A program made the position numbers and the translations under genes. From Tetrahymena thermophila SB210 (lineage: Eukaryota > Ciliophora > Oligohymenophorea > Hymenostomatida > Tetrahymenidae), in assembly GCF_000189635.1 (NCBI RefSeq), contig NW_002476186.1:62001-126000 (forward strand): DNA of 64,000 nt. Direction: 5' to 3'. Below the pieces are notes generated by a model. That model made no database searches. It saw only the letters and a list, made by a program, of their open reading frames with translations, and had not been told where the DNA came from. Positions 7,701-47,400 of this stretch are shown one piece after another (position 1 is the first letter of the stretch; the number at the start of each line of letters is the position of its first letter).

Positions 7701-8502
7701 AAAAAAATAATCAACTTTCAAGTCTCGATGATAAATGCTCAATTAATGGAGGCTCTGTAATCCCTTTACAACCTGAATTTATTTAAGTTCATAAATTCAA
7801 TATAAAATAGAAAAATATTTTGCTTTAAAAAATAAATAATACAATCAATTTTCATTTAGAATTTAACATTTATAATTACTTATATTAATACATTCCAAAT
7901 CTCTTCCTCTTAAAAGTAAGTACCGTTCTTAATGTGCTTGTTAATATGAGATAGTAAATCCCCGTTATCTACATACTCCATGATAATACTATTTAATACC
8001 AAATATTATTAATACTAATATTGGAAAAAATTATTTTAAAATTTGAATAAATTCTGATTTGAGTAAACATTTTTAAAATTATATTATCATTTTTCTTGTG
8101 AATATTTAATTTATATTTGCTAATTCAATGATAATTGTTATCTTGTTGTAATGGATTTTTTGCTATTACCATAAACAATTTAAGTGTGTGTCTATAAAGC
8201 ATTGTTTGAAATTCACTATATTTGGATGACGGATAGAAGCAATAATCCTGACTTCATTTAATGCATTTTGTTTTTCTTATTCAGTTAATGTACCTAGCAT
8301 TACTCTCTTTAGCGCATATATTTTACCATCTGACTACCGCTTAACTTTATAAACAGAACTGTATGCTCCTTCTCCTAATAATTAACAGTAATGTAATTAG
8401 TTTTTCTTTATATCTAATGAGAGCTGGTATAAAATATGCAAATTCAAATCCAATTTTACCTAATTTATCTAAAATTTCAAAATCTCTTAATTCCTATCCC
8501 AT
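4749..8502 (-). CDS. NEK-like Ser/Thr kinase with long disordered tail, about 1000 aa
   Basis: ATG at 8502, TGA at 4751-4749. Nine introns fit: 8375-8459, 7989-8169, 7773-7879, 7617-7715, 7441-7500, 7252-7300, 7100-7155, 5359-5416 and 5227-5282. The remaining exons total 1001 codons exactly. The kinase domain fills roughly residues 6-265: glycine loop LGEGAYSSVY, ATP lysine in YALKRV, catalytic loop HRDLKSANVF, then GDFNVSK and GTPYYASPEVW, and the C-lobe motif SPHLRPSCKKIL. The DFG glycine is Asn, but the Mg-binding Asp is kept, so activity is plausible. Sequence style matches the NIMA/NEK family, which acts at centrosomes, basal bodies and cilia. The remaining ~730 residues are S/N/Q-rich and low in structure, including two 3' exons. 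Divergent from the Aurora-like kinase gene upstream. Confidence 0.9.
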
Positions 8503-16500: not shown

Positions 16501-16741
16501 TGCATAAATTTAATTTGTTAATTTGATATTCTACCAGAAAGATTAAATAACCATATAAATTAATTTATTAATTGATTTTCTCTAAATCAATTAAAAATTT
16601 TTTGATTTTAGTGTAAATTAAGTTAATTAGAATTAACCAGAATCTTTAATAGAAAACACAATTAAAAAATTAATTAAAATTCATAATTTAATAAATAAAT
16701 AAATTCCTTCCTTCTATAAATAGCTTAACTTTTCCAATAAA
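13547..16741. other. Gene-poor AT-rich stretch, 3.2 kb
   Basis: This is the longest gene-free region of the window, between two plus-strand genes. Neither strand shows a TGA-poor frame with the Gln/Ser/Asn/Lys usage of the neighbouring genes. I saw no tRNA-like cloverleaf and no transposon termini. It includes imperfect hairpins near 15471-15491 and 16191-16225 and many homopolymer runs. An unrecognised RNA gene cannot be excluded. Confidence 0.5.
16191..16225. repeat. Imperfect inverted repeat (possible hairpin)
   Basis: Left arm TTATCACTAGATT at 16191-16203 pairs with 16210-16225, apart from a 3-base bulge, around a 6-base loop. It sits in the gene-poor stretch about 520 bp before the transporter start. 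Function unknown. Confidence 0.5.
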
Positions 16742-24019: not shown

Positions 24020-27000
24020 TCAACTTTAATTATCCTTTTGGTTGCTTTCGGTGTTTTAATTATTTTCAGTAATTTAATTGTTTTCAGATATCTAATTATT
24101 TTCTGTATTTTGATTATTTTAAGTATTATGGTTCTTTGTGCTGCTCCCTTCCTATCCTTCATATTCATATTATTACTAATCATATTATTCATCATCATAA
24201 TTCTCATCTTCATATTGTTAATCTTGTTGAGTGTAGTATTCTTCCCCATGTTCATTTTCATCTTATTCAGTATATCCACTATCTTCTGGATTATACATAT
24301 TATATGGTTAATCTTATCCTTAATCATCAGCCTATATGAAATCATTATTACCATCTGACTTTTGGCTTACAAAATAAGCCTTCACTTACAAGTTATTTAA
24401 AGATTTTATGATTACATCTTCTTCTCTTTCTTCAAAATTAAAAGAATTGGGGAAGCTTCCTTTGACTAGTTTATATGTAGTTTCGCTGATCATTACTCTT
24501 CCTCTCTCACCATTTGATTCCATTTTATTTGCTATCAAAACATTCGGTCCATAGATATCATATCTAACTATATCTGTACCAATGACTCCTCCTATGATAT
24601 CACCAGTATGAATACCAATTCTCATATCAATATCTGAGAATTCTCTTTTTTTCATTTCATCTATAGATTTGATCATCGAGAATGCCATTTCTATAACATG
24701 CTTGGCCTCTATAGGTGGTTTTCTCTGCTTTGCATTCAGAGTTCCCATTACAACATAGCAATCACCAATAGTATAAACCTTATATACTTCATTATCAATG
24801 CAAGCTTTATCAAACTCTTGTAATTTTATGAAATTTTTAAATAAATTTATTTTAAATAGAAAATAAAAATTTTATTTTACAGACAAATAATTTTTAGAGC
24901 ATTTATAGAACTTTCTCAGGTTCTTTACCTGAGCAGTATTTTGTAAAACCTGCTATATCAGCAAATAAAAGTGTAGTATTTTAAAGACTATCAGTTAGTT
25001 CACTTTATTAATCTTGCTATTGAGAAAGCAGTTGACCCATTATATGAGATGGGAGCAGATTGTAAAGGAAACGCTTATAAAGAAGCCTCTTGAATTCAAG
25101 ATTTCTAATATCATTGAAATTGCTTATTTAAAATTGTATGATAATGTAATGCATAATCAGATGATAAAGGGAGGAAAATAATGTCATAGAAAAAAGAGTC
25201 ATTAGACGAAAGTATCCTTATTTAAAAATGCAAAGCATGACCTCTGAGAAAATGTAAATGAAGCATATAATAATTTTTTCACAAAAATATTGAAAAATAA
25301 ATTCAGTAAAAATGACAAAAGTTATAAATTGCTCAGCAGATTAAAGATTAGATGAAAATGTATTTTATCCCTCTAAGCTCATAAAAGAAGTCTCTATGTA
25401 GAAGAAAATATATTGTGTGATATAAAGTCCGTAAATGAGAAATTTAATATCTTTTAATCTCCATAAGTTGTAAATATTTTTTACTTTGTAAACAAAAAAG
25501 GCAAATCCTACTATGTAAATCGCTCTGAGAACTACTACGTAGATAAATATACTAATCAGCTTATCTCTTACTATCAAATAAGAGATGGTCTTAAAAATAT
25601 AGATGCATAACCATACCCACAAATTGATTTAATTTGAGTCTTAAGCTTTCTAGATTTACTGTGCAAAGAAGTCTTTAGAAAGCTCTATTTCATTTTCATT
25701 ATCTTTTGCTTTGTATGGTAATACATCTTTAAATGTCAATCTATATTAATCATTTTAATCTTTCTTTTTAAACTATTTCTCTTATAGTTCTTCAAGATCT
25801 TACTCATCATACACTTATCTTAAATTACTTGGGTCTACCTAGTTCTCAAGGCTATACTTTCCTTCAGAAACAACTTTCTCATTTATTTCTTAGTAATCAA
25901 AAAAAACTAATTTCTTTTCTGAGCTCATTATGCTTTGATCATCTCTAATTTACCTATTAAATAAAATTTTTTTAGAAATCTACAATATTATTAACTTTAA
26001 ATTTACTATTCCTCTTCTTCCATGATTTATTCAATATCGTGGTCTAACTGGACTTACGAATTTACTTATTAAACTGGTAAATAACCTAACTGAGGACCTA
26101 ATTGCATAAAAATATTAATTACAAATTCTATTTTTTTAATTCACTTTATTTTAAATCAATTTACAATAATTAATATAAAAAAAGAGAAATAAGAATTTAA
26201 AATTACTTTTATTATCGAGAGTATATTTACTAGATTTTGTATTACTCTTAGAGCGAATAGCGAACTCAGTTAGCCTTTTTTCTAAAGTCATTCTTTTTAA
26301 GAGAGTCGCATTCAGAGAATTATCGTTTTAACTTGGATTTTTTAAATATTAATTAAGATAACCTTAACTTGCTAAATCGTTTTAGTTTAGTTTTCTTTTA
26401 TTCGATTCATTTGGTGTATTAGAGCTTCTTTAAGACTAATTATTAGTATTTGATGAAGATCTATTAATTATGCCTTATGGAGTTTATCGTCCTATATTCT
26501 TAGGAGTAGTTTCAGGCGATTTTTGTGTATTTTAATACTAAATATCATAAATATTTATATTATTTAAATCATTTACTTATTTGCTCTTGGAAGAGGAGTC
26601 CTTTCTAAAATAATTGTTGTTAGTGTTAATATTATTATTTATGTTATTGTTATTATTTAAATTGATTTCTTATTACCCATTAGGGGATGATTCGAATTAA
26701 AAGTTAATTTAATTTATTTGTAAAACTGGATTTGTCTTTTATATATTTGATTCCATTTGATTTTAAAATGTTTTTGGAGTAGGTGGAATGAATTTGAAAA
26801 AGCCCTCACTGCTTTTTTCATCCTAATTAGTAGCAACGAAAGTCTATTATTGAAAATTTTAATTTGTAGCAACCTTTTAATCTTTTTGTAAGCTACTCGT
26901 TTTGCTTTAAGCTGATTATTTTTCATGGTTACTATTTTAGTTACTAAATACAGCCTTTACTTTATTGTCACTTGCAGGTAAACTGACTGGTAAACCTATA

Positions 27001-30000
27001 TTTTAAGCTGACGATCCTCTTCTTACTTAATTTTAAGAAAACCCTTACTTTTTTTCCATTTCCTTTATATTTTTTACTATTTGTATCACACTTGGATCAG
27101 GTAGATTTTGCATACTAGAACTAATAGCAGGTTATTATATAATTCCATAGTTTTTTGAGTTTCTTTTTAAGTTTGCGCTATTTATAGTACCGTTTCTATT
27201 CACAGGTGTGTTAATTTAGTTTATCATTCTATGACTCTTTGTTACAAGAGGAGGACTAAGAGTGGAAGAATTCGTGTTTTGTGCATTCCAATTGTAATTG
27301 TTATTTGCCATGGTATTAATGATATTATTATTATAGAAAACTGATTTTCTTTTTTGTTAAGTTTAAGGACTGATTTCTAAATTTTGTTCATTATGAATAA
27401 TGCTATTGCTTTAATCAATTTATCCTTGACCTTTACTTAAAAAATTTTGTATGTTTTCAAGACTACTTTAGTTAGCCATATGTGATTGTGTATTCTCTGG
27501 TGTACGAGTATTTCTTTTGTTTGGAGATCTTTGAAAAGGAGTATGGATATTACCTATGTTGATTGTATTAGAGTTTACATTTTGTTAGCCATTTTAATTC
27601 ACTGTTGTCGTTGGGTTAAAGTTAGCCAATTTCGTGATATTGCTACTCTTAGGTGATTAATCTATATTATCGAATTCGGAGTAACTCTTAGAATTAAATT
27701 GTTTTTCATTACTTATTCTCTAAATTATACTTCCTGTTGATATTTTATTTGTACTAGCTCCACCTGCCACAGCAGCATTGCTATCAAATGGAAATTGATT
27801 TGTAACAACATCTGTAAATCCTTACAAATTTTTTATTTAATGAAGTTTATGCAAGGATGTTTTTGATTATGGAGTACTTACAGTGTTAATTACACTATTA
27901 ATATTAGGGTTGGCATACATAGTATGTCTTGATTTATCATATCCCATAAATGCTTTTGGTGTTTATTTTACCTTCTCAATTCTCTGTTTCGAAGGAGGTT
28001 TAGAAAGGTTTCCAACTACCTAAATTTCTCCATTGGCATTATTAATAAATTAGTTATTAGGGTTAAAAATTGATTTTTTGCGTAACCCGTTGTCAACTTT
28101 ATTAGCATTTACTGGAGGCACAATACCACTGCTAGAATTTCTGCTTGAGTTAGGTACAAAGGCAGGTATATTTAAATTAACACTACCACTATTTGAAAAT
28201 GGATACAATAAATCGTCTTGCTTTGGTAGTGTATTATTGGAAGTATTCTTTCTACTCTCTGCACTACTCTAAATTTTTGACTGCTTTTTAGAGTCCATAG
28301 AAGGATTAGGCTCTTCTACCTCATTATTGTTAATATTTATAAGAATGCTTGCAATATTTTTTGACAAATTCTTTTTTTGTTAATTGTTTTCTGCATGTCT
28401 TAACTTTTATGCAACAGATTACACATTTTTAGAAGGTGTTTATTATTCGTAGCTCTTACTTGTGTTTCCTCCGTTTTAGTTTAGGTTACTTTGTGGAGCT
28501 TAATAATTTTATTCTTCATTTAACGAATTTAAATTAGGTTATGTTAATTTTAATTTTAAGGCATCTAAGTTGTTAATTTTTTCACTTTTCAATTCCTAGA
28601 AGTGGCTAATCGAAAAATTGTGACTTCTGTTATCCATTGTCAATTTAGCCTTTTGCTCTATCATTTCTAAGTTACTTGTTAGATCTTAAACATTGGTATC
28701 ACTTTTATCAACTCTTGTAGCTAAAATATTAGGAGAGAGCATATTGCTGTTGTTTTAGTAATTTAATATACTGTTTGTTTAAGTAAATACTGGAATATTC
28801 ATATTAGCATTATTTTAGCTTATGTTTGTATGTCCTAAAATAGCTGCATTTTATTAAGAAATGCTTAGCTTTGATGCATTGCTTCTTACTAAATTTTCTG
28901 GAGTGTTAAGTATACTTGGTGTTGCTGCTGATTACCTATGAATTTAACCATTAATAAGGTAACTTGAATTATGTCTTGAATATGCTAATGCTCCACCATC
29001 GTTTTACTAATTTTCCCCTAAAATCTATTAATTCAGATTAATTAAAAGCTCTTATCTTAAAGCATTTGAGCTGTTTGTTTAGTTACCACTCTATATTAGC
29101 TAAAACAAATTACTTTTTAATTTTGGAGAAATATTATTAGTCCCACTCTCTTTTTATTCAGCTATTTCAGGAAGGTCCTTTTAATTTAGTAGATGCTATT
29201 ATAGAGCTAAGGCTTACCTTTGTCTTATTTATTATTAGGGAGATAACAATAAAAGAGCACCAGCGTTCTTTTCAAACGTGTCTTTATTTTCATCCAAAAC
29301 TATATCTTAGTCTGTGCTATTTGGAAATTATTGTGATGAAGGAGATTCTTCAAGTTTTAAGGCAGTTAATGGGACATTTTGCTTTTAAATTTTTTCTCTC
29401 GAAGAAGGCATTATAGCCTCAGGTGAAGAAGCTAATTTTTTAGTTTTATATTTCTAAACCTGATAAGTTATTAGCTCACCTTTTCCTTTAGCTTCAACTC
29501 TTTTTTATTTAGCATCATTTATTCTGAATTTTTCATTACCTTTTTCCAACTTGTCCATTTATTGAACTTTTAAATCACTTTCTTTTACCTAAATTTATTT
29601 ATATTTAAAAATCAATTAAATTCAACAAATATTTTGCTAAGATACTCTTTCATATGCTTGCTCTGAAAGGGTTACTGTTCCTGGCTCAGAAGTACTACAC
29701 ACTCTACTAGTAGTATTTACAGTATCTCCAATAAGAGAAAATTAAGGTTTGTGATAGCCAATAACTCCAGCAATTACATTACCAAAATGAATACCAATCT
29801 TTAACTATATTTTTTCTCCATCTTCACCGAAAGTGAGAGTGCTTGAGTATTCTAAGATTTCAAAGGCAAAATTAATGGCACATTTAACTTCATTTACTTC
29901 ACTATACTATCCTTCTCTCTACTACAATTTACTTTGAACTATGCCACCACAAGCCATATAGGTCTTACCAACAGTTTCTATTTTTTGCAATCCATTTAAA

Positions 30001-33000
30001 TTGCAAAGAATATCAAATGCCCTGTATAAATTATCTAACAATTTAATGACTTCTACATTCTTTTTAGCTATTATATCATCGAAATTATAAATATCACAAA
30101 AAATGATAGCTACTTAATTTTCTATCTTAACAACATTCTAATTATCACTCTGAATTTAATCTCTAATGAATTTCGGTAGTAAAATTGAGAGAACTTCATT
30201 AAATTTTTGCATTTCCAATTAAAGCTTATTAGCAGATAAATACTGGTATCTGTCCATCATACCATACTAGATTTAAAAAAAAAAAGATTAAATAAGATAT
30301 ATCTAAATCTTTTAAAATACCTAATATTTCTAAGACATCAAGATATAAGTAAAAGCTGATATTATTGTTAGCGCATTGATTATATAATAAGCAATATACT
30401 CATTAATAAATGAAAATCTGTTTTAAATACCTATCACAAAGCTATTTGAAATATAAAATTATAAATAATTTATAATTTTAAAAAAACTTACTTGATAGAA
30501 TCATAAACGGCAAAGTAAATGTAAACAGCAATCATAATATCCATTCTCACTAGCTAAACAAAATAGCAAATGTACATAAAAACAAGCATAATAAGAAAAT
30601 TATCATAGTCATTTATTATTTAAATTGCAGCTGTTAAATAACCTATCCTGATCAAAATTAAGGCATAATTTAGGATTATAAAGAATTTTTCATATTTCCA
30701 TTTAGATAAAGTTAAAACTAAAGTCATGCTGATAAATACAAACAATATTGCCTTTAAAAGAAAATATTTTTAATATTTATCAAATTACAAATAATAAATT
30801 ATTTTACTTTTTCTCCATTTGTGTAACCAGGTTCAGTCATGATTTATACAAACAAGAAAATATCGAAAGTTAAGAAAATTATCAAGCTAATATACTTGCT
30901 AACACTTATCTAACTAATTATTGCTCGCTTAATATATTTTTACTCGAACTCTGGATTTTCAAACTTCTAGGTTATTTTACTTATGCCAGTATGAATATTA
31001 TCTATTCCAGTATTCATCACTATTTTTATTGTAATAATTTAGAAATATAAATTAAAATTACAATTAAATTTTATTTAATTTACTAGATTAAACAATTTCA
31101 TCAACCTCTGTTTGTCCATTAAAATATTATTTGATAATTCCTAGCAAAGTTAAGTGATTTGTTTAAGCTCTATCTCCTTCTCTTTTAGAGTCAGAGAGTT
31201 TGCTTAATTTGAATCCTGCATATTTATCATCAAAATACTAAATAGCTTTTTCTATTATCTCTAAGTTCTTTTCAAAGAAATGTGGAAGAATTTTAAATAG
31301 GGAATTCATTATTTCAAAGCTAAAGCATGTTATTAAGCTTATTACCAAAAAGGAAATAAAAAAGGCTGGGAAAGCAAATAATTCTCCGAAAATGATAAAA
31401 TCTATGTTGTCTTAGCTTTTCCAAGATAAATAAATGCAAGTGCAGATGATAAACATAGAAGATTGATAAGAAATATTTTGCCATGTAATACTTCCAGAAA
31501 AATAAACAGTTTAAAATTAGACAACTAACATAAGCATAATAAAGATTATCATTCGTGTTTCTTCAAATCCTATTAGCTTACCATTACTCTGAATGCTTTC
31601 TAATATCTAATCCATACCAAAGAATATAAATAGACTTTATATAAAAGAAGTAACTAAAAGTTTCATGTAGGTTGGAATCTCTGATTTCGACCAAAATTCC
31701 TTAGATGTTTAGTATTACATAGAGTAGTACTTAAGATTTTCAGGATCGGTGTTTCCTTTTTCATAATGTTTAAAAAAAATGAATACAATCAAAAAATAAA
31801 CACAATGAAAAGTATTTATTTACTACTATTCTAGGGATTAGAGGGATTAAAATAATAAATAAACAAAGGAAAAAGTGAAAAAAAGTTCAATAAGTAATTG
31901 TAGACTGATATTTCAACTTAATTCATTGTGTTTTCACCTTCCAAACAATACTTATCTTCTGTAATCAAGTAAATTAAGTAAAAAAGCATTTATCTATAAA
32001 TTTAAAGATTTAAAATCATATTTATAAAATCAGCCTATCTCCTTCCATGCATAAAAATTAATTTATATAAATCCTAAAAGCTGTCTACAGTCAGATCAGA
32101 AACATATGGGCAAGAAGTTTTTGGATCTTTGTATTTTTAAATAAACTCTTTAAGTAGAAAAAATAATAATGTAATTTACTTTCAATTTCCACAGAAAAGT
32201 GAGCAGTATTTGAAAGTCCTCGATCATTCGTAATAGCAAGGAATCTTTATGGTGCTTCTTATGATTTAAGTGTATTAAGAAGCATCTGCTTTGTGTCAGA
32301 ATCGATCTCATAGGCAACAAAACCCTTACAGAAATGACATAAGAAAAGGAAGTGGTTCTTTAAATAAATTTCATCGTCTAAAATAGTTTTTAAAACATCA
32401 CCTTTAATAATTATTTAAAACTAGAGCTGTTATTCTAGCTAATTAGAGTCTACAGTGATGACTCTTGACTTTTTTCTTTGGAATTTAGTGTGATTATCTT
32501 TACTATGGAAGGCAGAATTCTTTTCTTGGTCCTCACCTATTTGTATTTTAGACAAATTTAAATATGTTCATTCTAAATGTATATTATTACCCAATAATTA
32601 AGTTTGAACCTTCTCTAAATTTCTTCTAATTATAAATTTAATATCATCATAGTCGTTCGACTCAAAGTGAATATTTATTAAATTATTTTGATTTTTGAAG
32701 TCTTCTGGTTTTATAATTTTGCTTAAGTATGCAGAGGAAAGAGCTCTAGTATACTGCTCTCCAGTCAACATCCAAGTTTTTATTTTATTATTGTAAAGAG
32801 AATCCAAAAATAATTCAGTATTTTCCTAATAAAAAATTTTTTATTAATTTTTTAAATAAGCTAATTAATTAATTGTACCTTTAACTTCTCTTTTACTCCT
32901 AGGAGTGTGACGAACTGCATTCCACTTTCTTTTTCCTCAAACACACCAAATAGTTTGTCCAAAGCCTCTTTTTCTTTCACAATATTAGTTTGAAGATTTT

Positions 33001-36000
33001 CTAGCTAACTGACAAAGCGATCAGTTTCGTCTTTGCTTAAGGAGTATTTAGATATTAAGACACTTCTAAATCCATTTTGCATATTTTTATGAATTATTTT
33101 TGCCATCAAGTCTCTTTAGTAGTCTAAATAAAGCGGCACAGTTCTTAGCTCTTCTCTCATTATTAAGTCCGCGCCATTTTTTCGTTTTATTAATATACTA
33201 AATCTAAATTTTCTTCTGTGGAATGCAATTACTTCATATTTTTTCTTTTGAGACTATATCTAAATGATATATTCTTGTGCAAATATTCTATCCTCTTTTA
33301 ATCTTAGATTTTAACACTTAAAAGTGTATCCTAAATTTTTACAAAACCTTAGTATCATCTCTTCATCTTCATTGTAAAATGTATGAATTAATTAATTTTT
33401 ATCAATGTCAAACTTAGTAACTGTTTGGTGACATAAAACAAGACATTTTAATGATGTTCTAATTTATTTTCTATAAGTTGAATTTTCTTTGATATAATGT
33501 TCCAAAAATTTATCTGTATCTTTAGGTATGCTCTATTCCTTAAAGTTGATATAAAAATAAATAAAATAATTAACAACTTAAAATTTACTTAAAATGCCTG
33601 CATTTTTGCAAAATTAACTGAAGCAGATCTAGAGCTCTTTTATTATAAAAATAATTAATAATTTAAATAAATATATTAGGTTTTTAAAATAAAAATTAAA
33701 TACTTTGTTAGAATCTATTTGAAGAGATTTTTGAGGTAATAATTTTGGTTTTCCGTTTCTGTTATTACCAAAAAATTTATTATGAGACGTCTTAATAGGT
33801 GAAAGATTTAATCTAGATGAGAGCTAACCCATTTCTAGGCTTTCTCTCTTTATATGCAACTTAGGCATAGTAGATTTATTTAAATTTTTATAAGATTTTT
33901 TTCTTTAAGGAGTGATTTAATTATTTTTTTCAATTGAAATATTTTCTGCATCAACGTTGTTATTGTTGTTTTCATTATGCAAGTGATTGATGTCACTTTT
34001 AATTTCATTTAATGATTCATTCTTGGAATTTAACTCACTGTTATTCTTTAAAAATTTCTTTTATTTTTAATTTATTTTCTTTTATTCGCTTTTCGTATTT
34101 AATTTTTCTTGAGGACTTATTTCTTCTTCACTTTCAATTTCAAGTTCATTATTTCCATTTTCTTCAATATCTTCATCTTCTTCTCCTTCATTCTTATTCT
34201 CAATTAAATCGAAGTGATTTTCGCTACTGTATAACTCAATCTAAAATGATTTTTTATGAAGACCTCCGATAGAAGAATTATATTTATCGCTTGAATTTAG
34301 TTAAGCTTGCTGATCTTATTTCTTATTATTGTTGTTATTGTTATTATTATACGACTCATAAATCTACTAATGATTCTAATTTTAGCTATTATCTTATAAA
34401 TTTGATTCATTTATTGTATTACTGATAGAATCAAATGGCTTTTCTTATCTAATTGATGAACTAGCTACTTATCTTGTTTAAAAAGTAAATTATTTCATAG
34501 GTTTTCTCTCTATTTTTTAATTTTCTTAATCTCTTGAATGAATTGAAAGTTGGTATTGCCTACTTCTGCTTCCACCTCTCAGTGATTCCATTGAATTTAA
34601 ATCATTAAAATCTTTTGCACTTCCTGGTTTCTTACCAGAATCTTATTTTTCCCATGGAAGATTCATAAATTTACCTAATTAAGGACTTTCTAATGAGTTA
34701 CCATTATTGTGGTTATTATTATTATTATTATTTAAAAACACTCTTTAGTCTTCTAATTCTCCAGAAATATTTTACTATTGATGAGTACCACTATTTTCTT
34801 CTTTATTGATTATGTTTAAGAATTTTACATAATTTTAATCTTCGATCTTAGACATATCTATTTTAAGGGATTTTTTTTTATCCCTTGGAGTTTCTTCTGA
34901 ATTTAAACCACCAGGCTTGAATTGACTATCTCTTCTTGTAAAAATGTTACCTTAGTTTCCCATAGAAAATTAAATGCTTCCAGATATTGTATTATTATGA
35001 TTAGAAGCAAGTAAATTAAAAATAGTGGATTATTTATTGTAGTTTCCAAAGCGATTAGATGGATTTTTGGATGACCTACTTAAAAGACTTTCTTCAAGAG
35101 AAAAGCGCCTTGAAATTTCTTTTAAAGCATTTATCTCAATTGATAATTTCTTGCTTTGGTTTGTAAGTTTTTCAGAAGGGTTAGAACTATTAGAAAATTA
35201 ATCTTTGTTCTGAGTTTATTAAAGAAGTGTTTTATTATATTCTTCATCTTTTTCTTCTATTGTGAAAGGAAGAGGATTCGCTTACTAACTTTATGATCTT
35301 TGCTTATTTGACTGATTAGAATTAATCATAATTTCTTTTTTGTTTGAAGTTGATTAATTTGTAAAAAACAGTTCCCTTTCATCTTGTGAAGGAGTGCCTT
35401 TGTCCTGCTAAAAACTATTTGAATTGATAAACTTTTTTTAAGCTGAAAAATTGATATTCAAGCTATTTTGAGAGTTAAGGATGTTTAATTTTGCTTTCTC
35501 GCTCATTTCAGAATTTATTTAACCACTTCCTTCAATAGAATCAGGACTAAACTCATTATTTCTAGTATCTTTTTATTTTTTATAGACTATCTTTGCACTT
35601 TAAGATACTTTTTCAGAAGGGATTTCAGATATTTCATAAGCTTCATTTAATCCATTAATATCAGCAGCTTAATTTTTGGAAGGTTTTGTATTTAAATTTT
35701 TATTAATTTCATTAATTTTAAGGTTTTATCCTAAATTGACTTAGTTATTATTTTGATCTGAATCTTAAGAATTATCACCACCACCCAAACCAAAAACCCT
35801 AGAGTTTTAAGATGGAGGTTTTGAAAAGTAAGGATACTTTATTTCTGGATCTTCAAAATTCTCATCTATTAAATGACGCAAAGTTTCTGGCTCATAAATT
35901 ATTTTATTGCTTACTACATTTTACCTAAAATCATTTTTATTTTCAAAAAAAGTAGGAGAAAAGTTCAATCTTTTATCATTTTGGCCTTTTACTTTATTTA

Positions 36001-39000
36001 ATTCTTCTGTTTTATCTTACAATTCATTTTCACAAGGTATATCTAAGTCGTCTAATTCTAAGCTTGTTTTTTGCTAATTATTTTTACTTGACCTTCTACT
36101 ATTTTTAATTTAAATTTCATCTTTAGTAAAAGTAAATTATTTTGGGTTATTTTTTTAGTAATTAGTCAATGAATTTATCTAATTATTGCTTATGTTTACA
36201 ATATCTTCATAATCAGAAATATTTGATTTCTCTTTTTAAATCGATTTTGATCTGTTTGTTGATGATAGTTCTCCCTTTATGTTTGTTTCAGTGTTTGAAT
36301 TCTAATGTAAAATTTTATTTTAACTGCCAACTCCATCTATTTTATTAACAAGGATGGTTAAGTTATTAATATGAGAATTAGGTTGGTTTTATAATTGACT
36401 TCCTCTTTTTTAACCATTAGATAGCCCTTCTTATCCTGCCTATTTATTTTCTACTTAAAAAATTCCTTCAAAATGAGGGTCAGAATCCTTTATTAAATTG
36501 CTAGCTAGAGAATGGATTTTGTCAGAAACGGTGTTATTCATGTCATAAAAGTTACCATTTTTATTACTGTTTCCACCATTTCCTTACTTTGTTTTGATTG
36601 AATGATTACTCTCTTCTAGAATAATACTCTCAAAACCTTTTTTCAAGTTATTATTATTAGCACTAACCATATGATTTAATTAATTATTAGAACGAATACT
36701 AGATCTAAATTCTGGGCTCTCTTGTAAATTATTCATACTATAAGATCTTTAAAATGCTTACTTGCTGTCTGAGTGATATATATTTTTTTCAGCACTGCTT
36801 TCTCTCTTTCGTTTAACCCTGCCAGTGCTATCATTTAATTTATTCCCTCTATCAAACAGATCATCAATTGCAGATTAGCCTAAGGTGTTGAATAAATTAA
36901 TTTTATCTTCACTCATTGCTTTGTTGTCTGAAAATCCTAGCTTATCGTAATCAAGAGTTTTAGCCATTTCAGTCTTTTCTCTTTAAGAAGCTCTTTTTTT
37001 CTTGAAATTTAAAGTACTGTGTTTATTTGATTTATTATTTTTTATTTTCTATTGTAATTCTTGGTATTTCTTCATAAAATCCTCATATTTTTATGATACC
37101 TTTTCAGGAATTAACTTATACTGGTTATCTCCGTATAGTATTTTGCACACATCAGAAGAATAAGGATAGCTGATGACATTCGTTTTTCCAATAATAACAT
37201 GAGTTGTAACTGATAAATCTGCAATAGGAATAGCTTCTCTTATTCTAAATTAAGGATAAAAAAATTTTTGGCTATACATAACTTAGAATTGGATTTTCAA
37301 TTATTATAAAAACTCAAGCATCTTGAAATATTTTCTCTTAAAATAATTGAAGCATTTATTAGTCTTTTTGTGGTTACTTAAATGATTAACTATGCTAACA
37401 CTTTTGTCTCTTGAATTTTATACAACTGTGTAGCTTTATTGATTTGACTATTAAAACTACAACTTATTAAGTTATTATTATGAATGAATTGGTTATATAT
37501 TTTATTAGGCAGCGCTATTTTCAAAACTTTGTATAGGTTTTCTTGAGTTTTTAACTTCAGCTAGTGATTTCAATCTCAAAAATTTTTTATTATCCTGAAT
37601 AACAATTTCCTAATTTTGAAGGCAAATCTCAATTAATGTTATGAAGTCAATTATTATATAAACAACTATAGGAAACAGTGGTAATGTATCTGTAACTGTT
37701 ATAAATAGCTACTTCATATTAAAGTTTGTAAAATAAAATTTTGCATCGTTATCTAAATTATTATAGCATGAACTACTCGATTATAAAATTAACCTTTGAA
37801 CTAATATTGGAACAAAAAGTAAATAGTTAAATAGACAGAAGAATTGGATTTTATTAAGAAAGAAAGAATCATTTTCTTTAGTGAAGCTGTTATTTTAATG
37901 TTTGAATAGTCTACACTCCAATCCTGTGTATAGAGCAATTCCAAATACCCATTCTTATTTAATAATAGCTGCCCTAGGAATAATGTTTTCTTCTGAAAAT
38001 TACTCAACTTAAGGATCTTACTTTAGTTTGATGTATCCTTTAATTTCATTATGTTCGTTTTTGCTATATTCTATTTAACCCTTAAACATTTTCCTAAAAT
38101 CTATTTAACTTCCTTTGTTTTTTGTTTATTATTAAGCTTTTTTTTAAAATTAGAATAAAATTAATTAAATTTAACTATTACAAACATATATTTTTCTATA
38201 CATCTTGTCACTTTTAATGGTTTAATTTTTTTGTAAATTGTATTCCCATTTATTTGGTGCATATCGAGAATGCAATGCTCTCCTTAAAAATCAAGCAAGA
38301 GTACTTCGCATGGGCAATGTTCGTCCTTATAAATAATGATGATATCTCCAACCTTTTATTTAAGTTAATAAAAATTAAATAGTTGAATAAAAGTTTAAAT
38401 CCTAAATTTTCTTAAAACAGAGTATTCATATTTTCAAATTTTAAAAATTTTAATGAGGATTTAAGATTTAAACCAACCTAAAATAAATGTTTAACATTTA
38501 TCTTTTTAAATGATAAATTAAAATTATTTTTTTATTATCCTTAACATTTATATTCTATTTTAAATATATTTTATTTGCTTTTATTGAAAGATTAATCTAT
38601 CAAAATAACTTAAAACTTTGAAATAATTATTACTTCTATGTCTTTCCATTTTTTCAAATCAGATAAATTTATTTACTGCTCTACAACATTCTGGTGAGCT
38701 TCAAATAATTTGTTTCTATGCTTATTAAATACTAAACTTTAGCGTTCATTAGTTGTTTTATCAAATGTGCTTTTATTCTACTCCACTCTAAGCAATAGCA
38801 GAATGTATGTTGTATAAGATATCAAAATTGGTACTATGTAAACTGCGAATAACTACAACCTATTAATTTATTTATAAAAGCAGCTTAAGCTAAATCTAAT
38901 TAGATAATTTATTTATGATTCTTTTAAATACAATCATATACCTATCTATTGTAAAATTATTACCGTCATCTACTCCAATACTTATAATCATTATAATCAT

Positions 39001-39481
39001 GTGTATTAAAAGGAACTTGCGTTAAAAAAATTAAAAGAGCGTTAAAGGAAAAAAATTTTTAACCTATTTGTTTATATAAAATAAATTGGTGGATTAAACA
39101 CAGTTCATTGTAGCTTAATTTATGAATTTACATTATATCTTCGAGTATTAATTTAATTTGACAATTATTCAGGTTTTACTCCTGATATTAATATTGCTTC
39201 TCCTCCATCAAGCTAAATCTATTTTGATAATAATTTAGTTAAAAATGATAATTTTTCCACAACTAAAATAAGCTGTTAGCAGCTTTATATTTAGATAGGG
39301 CTAATTCTAATAATTCTCAATGCTTATTAGTTAAATGATTTTTTTAATTTAACTTTGAAGTATAAAATTGAAATACTTTTCTGTTCGTTGAAGAATATCC
39401 TAATTAGATTGCATTTTATGATTTTCCTTTTTCCCTAATGCTAAAAAATGATTTTGAACTATAAGATTTATCTCTATTCAT
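24020..39481 (-). CDS. P4-ATPase-like/guanylyl cyclase fusion, copy 1 (giant, roughly 4300-4600 aa)
   Basis: ATG 39481 (exon 1 is 39377-39481) to TGA 24022-24020, with many introns, most placed only approximately. Order: short N-terminus; P4-type helices 1-2 (about 39070-38650); actuator domain (IYKDEHCPCEVLLLD, about 38350-38240); helices 3-4; degenerate phosphorylation motif (37169-37189); a very long S/N/Q-rich insert (about 37060-33700); nucleotide/P-domain remnant (about 33700-32200); membrane helices (32000-30300); cyclase domain C1 (30240-29640); a huge disordered linker (29600-26000); a second membrane block (25640-25330); C2 (25130-24390); acidic Tyr/Gln tail. C1 has the metal-type IFCDI plus KIETVGKTYMA (guanine Glu) and FSLIGDTVNTTSR. 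C2 has LFADIAGF and YTIGDCYVV with both metal aspartates. Makes cGMP from GTP at a membrane (family knowledge). The ATPase motifs are lost; see findings. Confidence 0.9.
24023..24110 (-). repeat. Short Asn-Asn-Gln repeats at the cyclase C-terminus
   Basis: The last ~30 residues of copy 1 repeat an N-N-Q-x-[TS]-E unit about four times, after a Tyr/Gln/Asp-rich acidic stretch. Low-complexity expansion; the equivalent tail of copy 2 is acidic and Asn/Gln-rich without the same register. Confidence 0.75.
32205..32237 (-). other. Degenerate GDGxND hinge in cyclase copy 1
   Basis: The stretch aligning with the P-type ATPase AIGDGANDV motif reads LAITNDRGLSN. The paired aspartates that bind Mg2+ in active pumps are not in place. 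Alignment was by eye from flanking residues. Confidence 0.65.
37169..37189 (-). other. Degenerate DKTGTLT phosphorylation site in cyclase copy 1
   Basis: Following helix 4, the stretch HVIIGKTNVIS aligns with YIFSDKTGTLT of P4-ATPases. The phosphorylated Asp is Gly; only Lys-Thr of the core remains. Confidence 0.8.
38239..38250 (-). other. Degenerate DGET loop in the actuator domain of cyclase copy 1
   Basis: The actuator loop that reads DGET in active flippases reads NGNT here, inside MHQINGNTIYKK. The Glu needed for dephosphorylation is absent. Confidence 0.8.
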
Positions 39482-41433
39482 TGCAGGCTATTGACAACTC
39501 TATGCTGTGGTGAAGAAATATAATTTTTTTTATATTATATGATTATAAAAGATCGAAAAGTATCGCTTTATGGAAGAAAACCCTTAATCTTATCAATAAT
39601 ATAAACAATAATAGGTTCTTTGAAAATTAGTTAATAAAATTAATAAACAAACAAAAAAATATTGTTTTTAGAAACTCTTCTACTTTATAAATTAAAAAGA
39701 ATATGGTATTAAAAAATATATAAAAGTCTAATTTGAATTAATTAGTCATATTTTAATCTGTAATAAAATATAGATCTTACTGCTAAATAATTATTTAATT
39801 AATAAACTCTCAATTTCTCTTCCTTTTCATTTTCTAAAGCTTAAATATACTTATTCTTTGTTCAGTAGTTTCAAGCATTAATAGAAAGCTGCATAAACTT
39901 TACCCCAAAATATAAAATTAACATTTTAGAAATTTTTAATAAAAACCTATAAAATAATTTTTTTAATCTAAAAATCGTTAGATGTACCAAACTCTTTCAA
40001 TATTTTTTAAATAATTTTTTCTATTTTTAAACCAGTAAAATTTATTTGAATTTTATTTCTTATGCTTTCTTCGCTCTATTTAAAGTGCTATAAATAAAAT
40101 ATAATTATAAACCTAATTTATTTATAAAATTCATTTTTATTTATGAAGTTTATAACAAAATTTCTTAATTAAATATCTTTTATACATACTAAAACCTGAT
40201 TGAATTATTCAAAATAAATAATTTATATTTATCAAATAATAAAAATTTGTAAATAGAACCAATTTTTTAATAGTTTCATTCATCGTAATTTTTTTTTAAA
40301 TTGTACTTAATTTGTAAAATTTCTTTTTTTAAATATACTTGACTGAAAGATATTATATAATTTTATTTTTAAAATTTATTAAATTTATAAAAAGAATATA
40401 CAGTATCTTTAGTTTCTTCAAAAATAAACCAAATACATAGATTTGCAAATGATAAAATATTGTTTTACCTTTAAATATATTAATTATAAAAAATAATTAA
40501 ATAAATTTTATTCTAAAAGATTTGATATATTTTACTTTTATAATTAAAAAAGTGTAAAAAAGAGTTTTTAAATTAGTATTTTTGCTTATGATTAATAAAT
40601 ATTGAGTGGTGGAAAAATTCATTTAATTTTTATTAACTCAAGTTTTTGTGGATAGGATTTAGTTTTTTTTTTTGATAAATAATGAATTTTATTTAATGAT
40701 TGATGAATAAATTAATATCTTAATATATCAAAAATACTCAAATAATTAGTTTTTTTTTAATTTTTAATGAATTTAACAAGAATATAAATATTTATTAAAA
40801 TGTTTTTAATTTAAAATTTTTAATTAGTTAAAAAATTAATATTTTTTCTAAATATCTGTTCAAATAAACATAAAAAAATATGAATTTAGATATAATAAGT
40901 TGAAAAAAAACACTGATTTATGATAAGCGACTAATTCGTTATGATAAAATTTAAAAGTTTTTAACTAGGAAAATTAAGTTAAAGGTAGAAATTCTAAGTG
41001 TATTTTAGAGATTATTTTCAAATTATCATCTTTAATTATTGAACTTAAATAGAAATGTTTGATATTTTAAAAAATTTGTTGATAAGTATATACTTAAAAT
41101 AAAATAATCACTAACAAACTTAAACGTAAAATTTTTAAATTTGATAAAAATGTTTAATTCGTAGGGATAGCATTTAGCTCAAAATGTAATAAACACTCAT
41201 TTATTATTTAGTAGATTCGTTTATAAATGATAAAATTAGTTATTAATTTCGTAAATATTGATTGACTGATTGAAACATATTTTAAGTTCTTTTATATAGA
41301 GATTACACACAATGACCTAATAATAAAAATTGTTATTAACTAAAAAATAAAGAAATCACTATCTCAGTTAAATAGCTAATATTTAAAATAATTAATTATA
41401 TAGACTATTTTTTGTTTTCTGAAAGGATTAAAA
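39482..41433. promoter_or_regulatory. Divergent spacer between the two cyclase genes
   Basis: This 1.95 kb region separates the two start codons of the head-to-head cyclase pair, so it must hold both promoters. It is almost wholly A/T with T and A runs up to about ten bases. No coding-like frame extends beyond about 40 codons, and I recognise no named factor site. Confidence 0.6.
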
Positions 41434-44400
41434 ATGAAGGAAATTAGCTTTGGTAAGAAAAATAATAACAAGGCAAGCGCATTAAATAAGTAGCAGGCTT
41501 CAAATTAAATCAAGCATTCAGTATTTTATAAATATTCATTAAGAATCTTAATTATTTGTTCTTAAATTTATATTTCTAATAGCAATTGTTATATTTTAGG
41601 ATAGTTTTTTGTTGATTATTAGCAAAAAAATTAGAATTAGAAACAAATTTTAGATGTAAAATTGTAATAACATCTCAAATTATTATCAAATAATAAAATA
41701 GATTGAGTTTAAGTTTGGAGAACCAGTAGGATTAAGTGGACATATTTAATTAAACAACAAGATTAAAACTGAGTTGTATAGCGTAACATAATATTGTTTT
41801 TCAAACTTAATATGAAACAAACAAATAAATATAAAGCAAAAAAGCTCTAATTAAAAATTAAATTAATATTCTCATATAAAAAATAGAAGTTTAACTTATT
41901 TCCTAGATGCCTTTTATAGTATATGTTAAAAAGACCTGTCCATATTTTGATTGTTTGCTATTTAATTGGAGTTATTACTGCTGATCCTGATGTTTATCTT
42001 TATACAAAGTAAAAGCATATATATTTTATCATTTATGAGCAAAGAAGGGGAAGATTTATTAGATAAATGGTTGTTTATGTACAGATAGATCATTTGATAA
42101 ACTTTCATTCAAAAATTACTTGAAAATTTATTACATGAATTATAAATAAAATTATTTTTGATAAAAAACTAATAAATAGGCCTCACATTTGGTTAATATT
42201 TTTTCTACCTCTTTTATTAAGTATTGCTCTCTATACTTTTAATGAGCATTTTATAGATAAACAAAGATAAAAGAGAGATGAAATATAAAACAACCGTTTA
42301 TGCAAATGCTTCACTAAACTTATAAAAAACTACTCTAATCTTTTAAAAAAGCTAAGAGAGGATATTAGTGAAAAAATAAAGGATGAAATAAGTGATAAAT
42401 TAGACTAACATTTAATAAGAGAAGTTAAATGGGGAGATTTGGAGGTATTGCAAATATTACTATTATTTTTATTTAATTAATATGAAAAAACGAAAAAAAG
42501 TATTAAATGAACTATTATGAAAAAGGTTGGGGATATAGTTTTTCTCAAAATTGGAGAAGTAGCTCCTGCTGATTTAGTTTTACTTGACAGCGAAGATGAT
42601 TATGCATGTATCGATACATCACAAATGAATGGAGATACAAATATAAAAACAAAAACACCTTTTCACCTAACAGAGAGTATTTAATTAGATACAAATTTAC
42701 TTAAATTAAATAGTTTTAATATTCATCACGATTTTTAATTAAATTTGTAATATTTGATTCAAATGGCAATTAACAAAGATATAGAGGAAAATATTTTTCT
42801 TTTCTTTAAATAAACATTTTATTTTTTTTTTTTAATAAAAAGGCAAGAGAAACTCTGGTGTAAATAATAACCCCTTTGAATTTAGGAAAATGCTTTGTGG
42901 TAAAATTGAATATGGAAAAAACTAGCCAGATTTAAATAATTTCGAAGCTTTTATAAAACTTAAAAAACACCCGAATTGGGAAACTATAACAAATGATAAT
43001 TTTATTCCTCGAGGCTCTAAGCTTACATACACTGATTGGGTTTACGGAATGGTTGTTTATGTTGGTCTAAATACTAAATTTTATTTAAAATAGTTAAAAA
43101 AAGAAAATTCATCATTAATTAGTGCAAAATACTGGAGTTTAGATGAGACAAAGCAGCAAATATACTTTATGGGTTTATATCTTATTATGATCGCGTTTTT
43201 TATTGTAAATGTTATAATATCTACATCTTCTTTTTATGTCGAAGACGATCCATTCTCTAAAAAAGTATCAAATAGTAAAATCCGAAGTTAAAATCTTTAG
43301 ATAGAATTTTTTAATATGATAAATATGCTCCCAGTATATTATTTTTTAGTTATTGATTTCATTAACTTTCTTCTTCTCTTGCAAAGAAGATAGGCTTAAA
43401 ATAGAGATTAAACTGTTGAACCTGAGTCTCAAAATTTGTAAATATAATCAGATCCCATGAAACTTACTTAGATTTCTTAGATGTCTCATGTTTTTCTCCA
43501 TAAAAACACTTCTATAAGTACAGGAAAACTAAATGTTAGGACAATAGGGTTTGGCAATAATATTTTATATTAATTTAAAAATTATGAGAGTATAAAAGAT
43601 TATGTGGTTAAGAACAAAGGTAGTTTTCAAAGTAATTTATTTTTTAAACAAATAAATTAATTACTTGATTTTTTAAACAAATAAATTAATTACTTGATTT
43701 AAATAAGGAATTAAATATATTTTAAATTTTTTTAAAAAGGAATGAAGAATATAATTGAAAAAGAATTCAAATTAAATATTTAAGAATAAAGTGAATCTGA
43801 AGAAGACTTAGAAATTGAAGATAATACAATAGTAAATTTAAAACAAAGTTTATATTATAAAGAAAAATGTAACTCAACACGACAACTTAAAAATAAACCT
43901 TTAATTGGTGCTAATAAAAAGACTATTGCTTCTTTAAACTCAGATACATAGGAAGAAATTGAGTTACCTAAAAAGTTAACTTCAATCACTAATTAGTCTT
44001 CAGTCATGAAGCTGTTAAAGCTAGGAGAGTATAATTAATCTGAGGGTTCCAATAATTTATTTGATGGAACAAGAATGAGTAATTCATTAGCAGTTTCTAG
44101 GTTTGGCTAACCAAACTAAGGGAATGGTTTTTTACTGAGTTTTACACAAAATAAAATTATAGAGAGATCTTAGGAGGTGGATTTAGATTAATCAGAAATT
44201 ATTTATAATGATTAACCTTACTTTTAAAGAGGTTATTCTGAGAGAGGGAAAAAAACTACTCATTATTAATAAAAAACAATTGTAAGAAAAACTAGAATGA
44301 GTTAAACTGTAGTAAAATCTAAGAAACCAAAATCTCTGGGTAAATACTTTGCTAGAATAGAATAAAAAGATATATTGTCAGATTAATATTCTACTACAAG

Positions 44401-47400
44401 ATCAGGTCAAGAATAAAACAGTTTACATTTAATTTAAGATTAAAAAAAGAATTTAAATGGTTAGCAAATTGTGTACAAAGAAGCTTCCAGTTTGATGAAT
44501 GCAGAAACGAATAATAAAATTGAAAATGGTGATGCTATTCAAACAGATGAAATAACAAATACGTAAGCTAACCAAGTCACCCCAAAAAATCAAAATATAA
44601 TAATACCTGCAACATAAAATAGTGAAAATAAAAGTCCAAATTAAAATACAAATAGTTGTAATGAATTGATTAATGAAAAAAACTTTTAAAATAGTAATTA
44701 AAAGTTTAATTTTTTGAAAATAAATAATTTGTAAAATGAGGCAGACAAAACCTTCAGTTAAAATACTTTATCGAACTATAATAATCCCAATAACACAAAC
44801 GAAGAAAATCGAGTGAAAAAAGAGCTATATATTCCTGATGAAAATAACCATACAAATGAGATTATTGATGATAATGCTAACTGGTAAAATCATTCTCTTA
44901 CTAAAACGCATTTCAGAGAAAAAGAAGATGTTTCCAAAACGATGAAAAATCTTTTTAGAAGCTAGACTTCAAATAATAATTTTGTTAGCCAAAATCATAT
45001 CAGAAACAATAGCTTAGGCATGACTGCAAGCTAAAATATAAATAAAGAAGAAAGGTTTTTTTCACCTTTTAAAAACCCTCATAGAGGTAGAGGTTCTGGT
45101 CGAAGCCCTATTCTCATCCCATAAATTTACAATACTTAAGATATTTTATCAAGAAAAAAAAATAATTAAAACTAAAATTCTAATCATGTTAAAAGAAATT
45201 TCGAAATTCACTACATTTCTTCCTATGATTTGAAAGATGAGAAAGATTATTTAGATTCTCTTTTTCATCCTGATGATCATATTCATAATGAAGTTCTTGT
45301 AGCTATGTCATTGTGCCAAATGACTCGTTCAAGATACGATTCAACTAGCAAACAGATTGTAAACTTTCATCAAACCCCTGAGGAGGAAGCAATTAATTAA
45401 TTTATTTCTAACTTCGATGTATCTTTGAAGTGTAAGTCAGAAGATAACAACAACACTAAGTATGTAGTTTAATTTTTAAACTTTTACACTAATTATTAGA
45501 TTCTTGCAATCATGGAGCCCACAAAAAATAGGAAAAGGTTTTCTATATTAGTCAGAGATCCTAATACTTTGTCAAGCTAGGATGTTTCTATTTTATATGT
45601 AAGGTAAGAGCTAGATATAACTAAATCGATACCTAGCAATTTTAATTTAACTATTTCATAGATCGAATAGGTTGATAAAACCTACAAAAACGTAAATATT
45701 TTTTTAATTTTTAAGAAAAAATAAATTTTACTTTGGATATAATAAATAGATGCTTTTGCATGGCAACTAAGTAATTATTTATGGGAAAAGAGAATTTACT
45801 GAGTCTGAAACTTAAGATATAATTTAAAGCTACAATAATTTATACAACAATGTAGTTGTAGATGAGCAGATTATAGAAAATTTGTTTGATTAATTAGAAA
45901 GCGAATTAGATCTATTGTGTTTAATTGGTTTAGAAGAAGAAATTCTTCCAGATGTCAAAGAAACAATTGAAATGATTGAGTAAAGAAAAGTTAAGCTAAA
46001 TTTATTTTCGTCAGATAAAATTAACAAGGCACTTCCTCTTGGATTTAATATGGGACTGCTCACTTCTATGTCTAAATTAACTTTTCTAACTTAAAGTGAT
46101 CCTGAGAGTTTAAAATATGATATTAAAGAATAAATAAAAGAAATTACTGTAAACAATTATATCAAAAAAATAACATTAATAATTAAAATTTAAAAAAATA
46201 AAAGATAAGTCTCAAAGATGGCCAAAATAATAGTTAAAAGTCCAAAAGATAGTCATTAAATTCTTCGTTAATAAATAGAAAATCTCTTTAAAACCGGAGA
46301 GTAAGCATTTATAGCATGTCAAGAACAGATTATTTGAAAAACTTTATGATTATTGTTACTTAGCAGTCATTAAAAGTCATTATGGTAATTTTTTAACTCT
46401 AATTAATTTATTTTTAATAGTCGTTTAAAATCTATTAAAGGAAGATGATTTCTTAAAGCAACATTTTGCATTTGTGTACCATTTCAGTAAAGGACTAATT
46501 GGCTGTGAGCTTACTTATGAGCAAAAAAACGAACTTTATTCTCTAATTAGAATGATGAGTTAAGAGGATTGCAAAATTATTTCTATTGGCTAAGATAATA
46601 TTAACAGTGATGCTGATATAAATATAGAGACAAGAGAAACTTACAAAATAAACTGTGATGCAAGAGTTTTTTCATTTAAGGGATTGTAAGAACTTCTATT
46701 TTACACATCTCGAATTCTCTTGGAAACATATGATTAGATCCTTTTATATACTTTAAACAGGTGCTTAATAGTTGGATTTTTATGGCTTATAATAAGATCT
46801 ACGTAATAAAATGATATGATGATTTCTTTTAGATAAACCATTTTTTATCATTTGCCTTTTTACGTATTCGGAATATTTAATATTCTAGTAGATAAAGGAT
46901 GCATACCATGGATAAGTCAGTTCTATCATAGAAATCCACAATAAGAATAAGAACCTAATTTGAGTTTAAATTTTATCACTCAAACTTAAGCTCCTTTAAA
47001 AAGCGACTAATTTCTAAAGTATAAGTCTTTAACATACAAAGAGTTTTAAATAAAAAGTGAACAGGATTTTCGTTTAATAAGCAGTTTTTGGTAATTCAGC
47101 AGTGCCTAATCCTACTTTTAATACACAGCACTTTTAAAGAAATTTATAGCTAGTTGCTTAATAACTTCTTTGATTGAAGTTGGAGTGTTTATATTCTGTG
47201 TATATTTTTTTGGCAGTCTTTAAATGATTTCAGGGTAAATTTTACCAACTCAATTCTCAATCAGGGCTCTCTTTTTAGTCTTTAATTGGGTAGGATAGAT
47301 AAGAGTAGCACTTAATTCATACGACTACACACTTAAATAATTTTTAGTATCATTTCTATTCATGTTTGGGATATCAATTATCTATATTTTTGTAGATGTT

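Follow-up and report, generated by a model that had tools for sequence, protein, structure and literature searches.

Could the flippase-like half of a ciliate ATPase–guanylyl cyclase fusion still work as a lipid pump? The question is raised by two genes in a 64,000-nucleotide stretch of the Tetrahymena thermophila SB210 genome, hereafter the window (positions 62001–126000 of contig C309, G000:C309, in an assembly of 101 Mb), to which all coordinates refer unless a contig is prefixed. Each gene places a P4-ATPase-like half ahead of two guanylyl cyclase domains. In both genes the phosphorylated Asp, the DGET Glu and the GDGxND motif of the ATPase half are replaced, and the catalytic residues of the cyclase domains are kept.

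Long frames appeared across the window when it was translated with table 6, in which TAA and TAG encode Gln; the bacterial code (table 11) gave no open reading frame of ≥150 amino acids and was rejected. The two fusion genes lie head-to-head and are transcribed apart:

24020–38401, minus strand: gene 1, P4-ATPase-like half then two guanylyl cyclase domains, multi-exon (gene models, PF00211, phmmer 1e-15)
42517–52681, plus strand: gene 2, P4-ATPase-like half then two guanylyl cyclase domains (gene model, phmmer 6e-24, TIGR01652)

The ATPase half of gene 1 runs from ~38.4 kb down to 32.2 kb, with cyclase domains at ~30.1–29.6 and 25.0–24.4 kb; in gene 2 the ATPase half occupies 42.5–46.6 kb and the cyclase domains ~48.5–49.2 and 51.2–52.4 kb. 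Exon borders came from a small purpose-built splice model and are approximate outside conserved blocks. The gene spans exclude N-terminal exons, several transmembrane exons are only loosely placed, and the exon holding the actuator-domain (A) block of gene 1 is present in one of two gene models. The predicted layout of both genes is that of the alveolate ATPase–guanylyl cyclases, in which two class III cyclase domains follow a P4-like half, and the gene models suggest that one transcript spans both halves. Gene 1 also contains two Asn/Gln/Ser-rich stretches of ~1100 residues each (33700–37150 and 26207–29588, minus strand), one separating the phosphorylation (P) site from the nucleotide-binding (N) domain and the other separating the cyclase domains.

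Loss of the DKTG, DGET, TGDN and GDGxND residues stops the P-type cycle. We built profiles of four motif blocks (DGET, P site, TGDK and GDGxND) from sequences outside the window and searched them against 1554 six-frame fragments of the window; expect values (E) from these profiles are given below beside placements by MAFFT, phmmer and motif scan.

38206–38358, minus strand: gene 1 actuator-domain block, NGNT (38239–38250) instead of DGET, Glu to Asn (profile E 3e-15)
37169–37189, minus strand: gene 1 phosphorylation site, GKTNVIS instead of DKTGTLT, Asp to Gly, codon GGA (MAFFT, phmmer)
32897–33532, minus strand: gene 1 nucleotide-binding-domain exon, the KGAD place reading REEL (beside gene 2) or NGAD (gap allowed)
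32754–32765, minus strand: gene 1 TGEQ instead of TGDK (profile E 3e-10)
32211–32231, minus strand: gene 1 TNDRGLS instead of GDGxND (profile E 1e-6)
42628–42639, plus strand: gene 2 NGDT instead of DGET, Glu to Asp (profile E 7e-17)
43499–43519, plus strand: gene 2 phosphorylation site, HKNTSIS instead of DKTGTLT, Asp to His, codon CAT (MAFFT, phmmer)
45215–45691, plus strand: gene 2 nucleotide-binding-domain exon, the KGAD position reading RQEL (phmmer)
46008–46019, plus strand: gene 2 SSDK instead of TGDK (motif scan, phmmer)
46588–46605, plus strand: gene 2 GQDNIN instead of GDGxND (profile E 8e-6)

Both predicted proteins thus lack what marks a functional P4-ATPase, namely the DKTGT Asp, the DGET Glu, GDGxND and an intact P-domain TGD. 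Neither DKTG[TS] nor GD[GS]xND occurred in any frame on either strand of 24000–53000, so the proposed check for an alternative exon restoring DKTGT returned none there. The single DGE[TKN] match in that span (29811, minus strand) lay inside cyclase domain 1, outside the A domain. An initial annotation of this DNA had placed eight degenerate motifs, all of which our motif scan recovered at the positions given. Its span of 32205–43519 does not extend to the cyclase halves of the two genes, nor to the C-terminal P-domain motifs in gene 2. As strings, all signature motifs are degenerate, just as it stated, yet some catalytic residues survive singly: the DKTGT Lys in both genes and the first Thr in gene 1, the TG of TGD in gene 1 and its D in gene 2, and, ahead of GDGxND in both, the P-domain Lys equivalent to that of SPxQK. 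As for the PISL of transmembrane segment 4, no P[IV][ST][LIVM] was present on the coding strand at that place in either gene; by eye it possibly reads PIVV in gene 1 and PVYY in gene 2, the transmembrane exons being loosely placed.

The profiles and alignments indicated that these are the right columns. With the DGET profile, gene 2 and gene 1 were the top two of the 1554 fragments (next best E 0.09). The GDGxND profile found both genes, and the TGDK profile found gene 1, with gene 2 outside its top five fragments. Run unsupervised on 12 members of the family, MAFFT put GKTNVIS and HKNTSIS under DKTGTLT. The phmmer queries were spliced and had low-complexity stretches removed; with them, HKNTSIS of gene 2 fell opposite DKTGTLT of structure 6k7g (which we take to be ATP8A1), and GKTNVIS of gene 1 opposite DKTGTLT of ATP11C. 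We placed the gene 1 P site by MAFFT and the ATP11C alignment because its best phmmer match, 6k7g, slips through gaps at this site. NGAD of gene 1 (33167–33178) pairs with KGAD of 6k7g across an eight-residue gap; the ATP11C alignment shows no KGAD there. The family alignment and the alignments with P4-ATPases, which had been suggested as a check, both show the phosphorylated Asp replaced by Gly in gene 1 and by His in gene 2. Curated family models responded less: pieces of gene 1 matched no ATPase family in Pfam (two matches to unrelated families were both below cut-off), pieces of gene 2 matched PF00122 and PF00702 below cut-off, and a piece of one Asp-bearing paralogue was above cut-off for PF00702 and PF08282. 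Every NCBIfam match was below cut-off, gene 2 reaching 2.7e-37 with TIGR01652 (phospholipid-translocating ATPase).

The cyclase domains are as follows:

29640–30122, minus strand: gene 1 cyclase domain 1, with the Glu of KIETVGKT and GDTVNTTSR present (PF00211 at C309:91640-92122)
24365–24820, minus strand: gene 1 cyclase domain 2, Pfam part, with the first metal Asp (FADI) in the adjoining upstream exon 24881–25016 (PF00211 at C309:86365-86820)
48493–49205, plus strand: gene 2 cyclase domain 1 (PF00211 within C309:110493-111205)
51846–52363, plus strand: gene 2 cyclase domain 2, TIGDCY kept, with FADI in the upstream exon 51207–51465 (PF00211 within C309:113846-114363)

In both genes, domain 1 has the KIETVGK Glu and the Asn and Arg of GDTVNTTSR, and domain 2 has both metal Asp residues (FADI, TIGDCY). 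That is, the predicted cyclase halves are inverted, with the base and transition-state residues in domain 1 and the metal Asp pair in domain 2. The Toxoplasma enzyme TgGC has the same inverted arrangement (PMC6592433; papers are cited by PMC number). The earlier claim of intact cyclase residues stood, as the Glu, the Asn/Arg and the two metal Asp are kept in both genes, whose cyclases would be expected to make cyclic guanosine monophosphate (cGMP).

A search of the genome showed that the two genes belong to a larger family. Fifty PF00211 pieces included those of 14 loci that each have a pair of cyclase domains, the window genes among them, on contigs C4, C39, C99, C122, C158, C187, C261, C262, C269, C422 and, with four of the genes, the window's own C309. 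Single, weaker cyclase matches at C36:29394-29627 and C171:61261-61497 were excluded from the 14; these may be further or different cyclases. The phosphorylated Asp was kept in seven of the 14 genes and replaced by Gly, His, Ser or Asn in the other seven. The Glu in the third place of DGET was absent from all 14, even from the Asp-bearing members.

Asp kept: DKTGTLT in C99, C262 and C309d; DKTGTIT in C122 and C39; DKTQTLT in C422; DKIGVPF in C269
Asp lost: SKSGTLT in C4; SQTGTIT in C261; SLSGAFL in C187; NTANTLT in C309c; N in C158; G in gene 1; H in gene 2
DGET readings in the 14 genes: NGKT, SESN, CGKT, DGKE, DDQS, DDKS, NGQS, KGIC, DGVS, DGVL, EGLT, DGKS, NGNT, NGDT

The C4 column (SESN) is the least certain of these DGET readings. 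Matches to the P-site profile were weak for C309c (E 0.0097), C187 (0.19) and C269 (9.5) and absent for C158; their P sites were placed by other alignments including MAFFT, with a gap in the motif for C158. The alignment from A to P domain held 12 of the 14 genes, as C261 failed the automatic cut and the A block of C422 lay in a separate stretch; the motifs of these two were taken from profile matches. The cyclase residues could be read in nearly all of the family: every gene showed the second metal Asp and the Asn/Arg, and all but one showed the base-binding Glu (13 of 14, C39 being the exception) and the first metal Asp (13 of 14, the exception being C422).

As a control we read P4-ATPase loci on contigs without a cyclase match (eight loci, L017–L024, of which L017 and L021 were unreadable; L015 is the C269 paralogue and was excluded). 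DGET or DGEK was present in 6/6 readable loci; for the other motifs, the loci listed gave DKTGT in 3/3, TGDK in 7/7 and GDGAND in 7/7. Because these P4-ATPases were intact by the same search, we concluded that motif loss belongs to the cyclase-linked group and does not stem from the genome or the method.

Three Asp-bearing members deserve separate description. C262 (L029) and C309d (L045, C309:478500-486400) have DKTGTLT, TGDD and GDGLND yet are without the DGET Glu; each could be a pump able to phosphorylate itself but wanting the usual dephosphorylating residue. C269 (L031, ~4934–4996, minus orientation) has a modelled intron directly before the P site, followed by DKIGVPF, and it retains GDGYKD and a well-kept C-terminal P4 domain (PF16212, E 3e-34).

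We then asked how often the Asp was lost. The cyclase-domain tree was drawn from 393 columns of all 14 genes, in sequences taken from three-frame matches that include some intronic or misjoined residues. With no regain allowed, the best tree implied five losses, and in the 200 of 1000 bootstrap trees that were counted, 3, 4, 5 and 6 losses occurred in 2, 33, 135 and 30 trees, respectively. A single ancestral loss was rejected by the approximately unbiased (AU) test (0.006; in the repeat, 0.0085 with cyclase data, 0.047 with the ATPase scaffold of 12 genes and 0.015 with both combined). Codons at the Asp position were GGA in gene 1, CAT in gene 2, AGC in C4 and C187, AAT in C158 and AAC in C309c, with GAT in the six Asp-bearing genes listed. 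A forced clade of gene 1 and gene 2 was rejected with the cyclase (AU 0.028) and the combined data (AU 0.035). The parallel loss proposed for the two genes is therefore supported, because their replacement codons differ and their clade is rejected with these data, but the ATPase data alone did not reject that clade (AU 0.19). More than one loss of the Asp is well supported. The number of events is uncertain, since many inner nodes are weak and the ATPase and cyclase data give different trees.

Constraint on the ATPase half was approximated by mean BLOSUM62 scores over 213 scaffold columns of the A-to-P alignment, with the motif columns removed. Asp-less members scored 1.08–1.35 against Asp-bearing ones, and Asp-bearing members 0.97–1.41 among themselves (Mann-Whitney p = 0.39, 6 v 6), suggesting Asp loss without a sign of fold decay in a comparison of low power. 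The two longest frames, which cover linker as well as domain, run for 1842 and 1015 codons with only a terminal TGA, whereas other sense frames contain 19–80 TGA. A pseudogene reading was rejected, the frames being open and the cyclase residues intact. The claim that fold markers are preserved agrees with the scaffold of the A domain and membrane, subject to that low power, and with homology over the N and P domains, but an AlphaFold model of the gene 2 N domain was too poor to add to it.

Our preferred interpretation, to which we give a probability of about 0.6, is that the pseudo-flippase half of gene 1 and gene 2 is kept as a membrane-embedded scaffold and an input module for the cyclase. 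A pseudo-flippase half beside an intact cyclase, as the initial annotation proposed, is borne out by the motif losses, the homology to flippases and the cyclase residues, with recurrence in the family and scaffold similarity alongside. The annotation described the trait in two genes, and both were confirmed, but it is wider, extending to seven of 14 genes for the Asp and to all 14 for the Glu. That the pump half seems to have been disabled repeatedly in the family suggests a role as sensor or scaffold; lipid, pH or partner sensing, the roles put forward in the initial annotation, would be candidates. In such a protein the A/N/P-domain framework and the membrane core would be retained. Without the Asp no aspartyl phosphate would form, and without the DGET Glu none would be hydrolysed. 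Because these residues and both Asp of GDGxND are gone, neither a Post-Albers cycle nor lipid pumping would be expected; the roles of DKTG, DGET, TGDN and GDGxND are described in PMC6592433. By analogy with the apicomplexan enzymes, the ATPase half might fold and reach its destination through a bound CDC50 partner, and might relay the state of the membrane or of that partner to the paired cyclase domains, which, with their catalytic residues kept, would make cGMP. CDC50A is a binding partner of Plasmodium yoelii GCbeta, which is degraded when CDC50A is missing (PMC9426505), and Toxoplasma CDC50.1 is required for localisation and for the phosphatidic acid response (PMC9600588). The T. thermophila genome has CDC50 family matches (PF03381) on six contigs.

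Several observations weigh against this interpretation. The P-site profile alone was non-significant, ranking gene 1 first at E 0.49 and leaving gene 2 outside the top five fragments, and the 6 v 6 scaffold comparison has little power. The AlphaFold model of the gene 2 N domain, made from a two-row alignment, was poor (predicted local distance difference test, pLDDT, 51), and a Foldseek search with it gave 0/219 matches at E ≤ 0.001, with no ATPase among the best 50 of the 219. P. falciparum GCalpha retains the Asp, and three transfections yielded no parasites in which that residue was changed (PMC7858053); at least one such fusion therefore seems to need an active ATPase half, and Asp-bearing and Asp-less fusions may work differently. 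In P. yoelii GCbeta, the guanylyl cyclase domain is reported to make cGMP when the ATPase domain is absent (PMC6592433); this agrees with a non-catalytic half but weakens the case for an obligatory input module.

Other explanations share some of this evidence. One is that the pump cycle serves as a latch for the cyclase: the Asp-bearing paralogues (7/14) would phosphorylate and then dephosphorylate slowly or never, and the Asp-less ones, the window genes included, would be fixed in one conformation. The Glu is indeed gone from all 14 genes while DKTGT remains in five, DKTQT in one and DKIGV in one, and C262 and C309d also keep TGDD and GDGLND; yet other residues could replace the Glu, and retention of the Asp may reflect slower decay, so we regard such a one-way phospho-switch as unlikely. 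We judge it similarly improbable that the ATPase half is a passive relic, a membrane anchor subject to neutral drift. Erosion of four motif strings in both genes, the long low-complexity insert between P site and N domain, the failure of any Pfam P-type ATPase family or NCBIfam model to exceed its curated cut-off for pieces of either gene, and the reported sufficiency of the P. yoelii GCbeta cyclase domain without its degenerate ATPase domain (PMC6592433) are all consistent with drift. But conservation of the scaffold columns matches that in Asp-bearing members, no TGA interrupts the two longest frames for 1841 and 1014 codons, and phmmer still reaches solved flippases at 1e-15 and 6e-24.

The surviving residues raise another possibility, a residual or altered activity through other residues, such as a regulatory input through ATP binding, with no phosphorylation. 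Both genes keep the P-domain Lys and the DKTGT Lys, each keeps part of TGD, and NGAD of gene 1 is a possible remnant of KGAD; the Mg-ATP site nevertheless looks largely dismantled, because both Asp of GDGxND are lost in both genes and KGAD of gene 2 reads RQEL, and we consider this activity very unlikely. An artefact of annotation or assembly, with the true motifs on an alternative exon, finds a precedent in the intron just before the P site of C269. We give it almost no credence, given that the P-site and A-loop residues of the window genes lie within open stretches with conserved flanks, that DKTG[TS] is absent in all frames of 24000–53000, and that other family loci of the genome follow the same trend. 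Beyond the scaffold and input role that we prefer for the two genes, we offer as a tentative and rather doubtful idea that the flippase cycle was turned wholesale into a non-transporting module of cGMP control, in which the Glu was lost family-wide, half of the members keep an Asp whose phosphoenzyme might be long-lived and act as latch or memory, and the other half, the window genes among them, became scaffolds or sensors fixed in one state after separate Asp losses.

Elsewhere in the window, a 1292-residue frame at 9406–13284 (plus strand) contains a protein kinase domain (PF00069, E 2e-45), and a frame of the sugar transporter family lies at 16241–18622 (plus strand; PF00083, E 1e-51). A second, weaker protein kinase match occurs at 5301–7742 (minus strand; PF00069, E 7e-13), with part of the domain only in frame.

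Among known systems, the solved flippases ATP8A1, ATP11C and Drs2 share sequence homology with the window genes over the A, N and P domains; in contrast to them, the window genes are without the catalytic Glu, the Asp and GDGxND and have cyclase domains added. The Paramecium and Tetrahymena pyriformis ATPase–guanylyl cyclases belong to the same ciliate fusion family. Linder et al. reportedly described this ATPase–cyclase fusion in both organisms in 1999 (EMBO J 18:4222), with an abstract said to present the signature motifs as conserved in both domains. For T. thermophila, an automated survey lists two fusions of P-type ATPase and adenylyl/guanylyl cyclase, PAC1 and PAC2 (PMC3143110), against the 14 paired-cyclase loci found here. 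Many sequences with an adenylyl/guanylyl cyclase annotation are mentioned in a paper on Paramecium (PMC9608856), and a large ciliate family is therefore not wholly unforeseen. When expressed in insect cells, the Paramecium enzyme was cut between ATPase and cyclase half (PMC5746546), and such a split may also happen in ciliates.

In Apicomplexa, Plasmodium GCalpha and the Toxoplasma ATPase-GC have the same domain order as the window genes. GCalpha keeps NGET and the Asp, and TgGC keeps DGET and the Asp (PMC6592433); in GCalpha 47 of 56 catalytic residues are identical (PMC7858053), although its GDGxND has been called degenerated (PMC6592433). Their ATPase half looks catalytically competent, whereas that of the window genes does not. 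Plasmodium GCbeta is the nearer likeness, with a degenerate P4-ATPase-like half, most of whose signature residues are unidentifiable (PMC6592433), fused to paired guanylyl cyclase domains, and with cyclase activity in its catalytic domain (PMC5746546). GCbeta is, however, one apicomplexan gene, whereas the ciliate has 14 paralogues with repeated loss of the Asp and loss of the Glu in all. The fusion type and the degenerate ATPase half are thus known, the latter from P. falciparum GCbeta. The passages and sections consulted in PMC6592433, PMC7858053, PMC5746546, PMC3143110, PMC9600588, PMC9426505, PMC3484397 and PMC9608856 contain no statement on the loss of these motifs in ciliates. Nor did the literature searched, partial text that was mostly without subscription papers and so no proof of novelty, yield a report of Asp loss or of family-wide loss of the DGET Glu in ciliates.

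One open question of apicomplexan cGMP signalling is whether an ATPase–guanylyl cyclase needs its flippase half to pump lipid. The free-living ciliate T. thermophila brings to it 14 paralogues, half with the Asp and half without, none with the DGET Glu, so that both states of the Asp occur in one genome. Provided that this species, or a sibling Tetrahymena, is amenable to laboratory manipulation, the 14 paralogues form a natural series that could separate pumping from non-pumping roles genetically.

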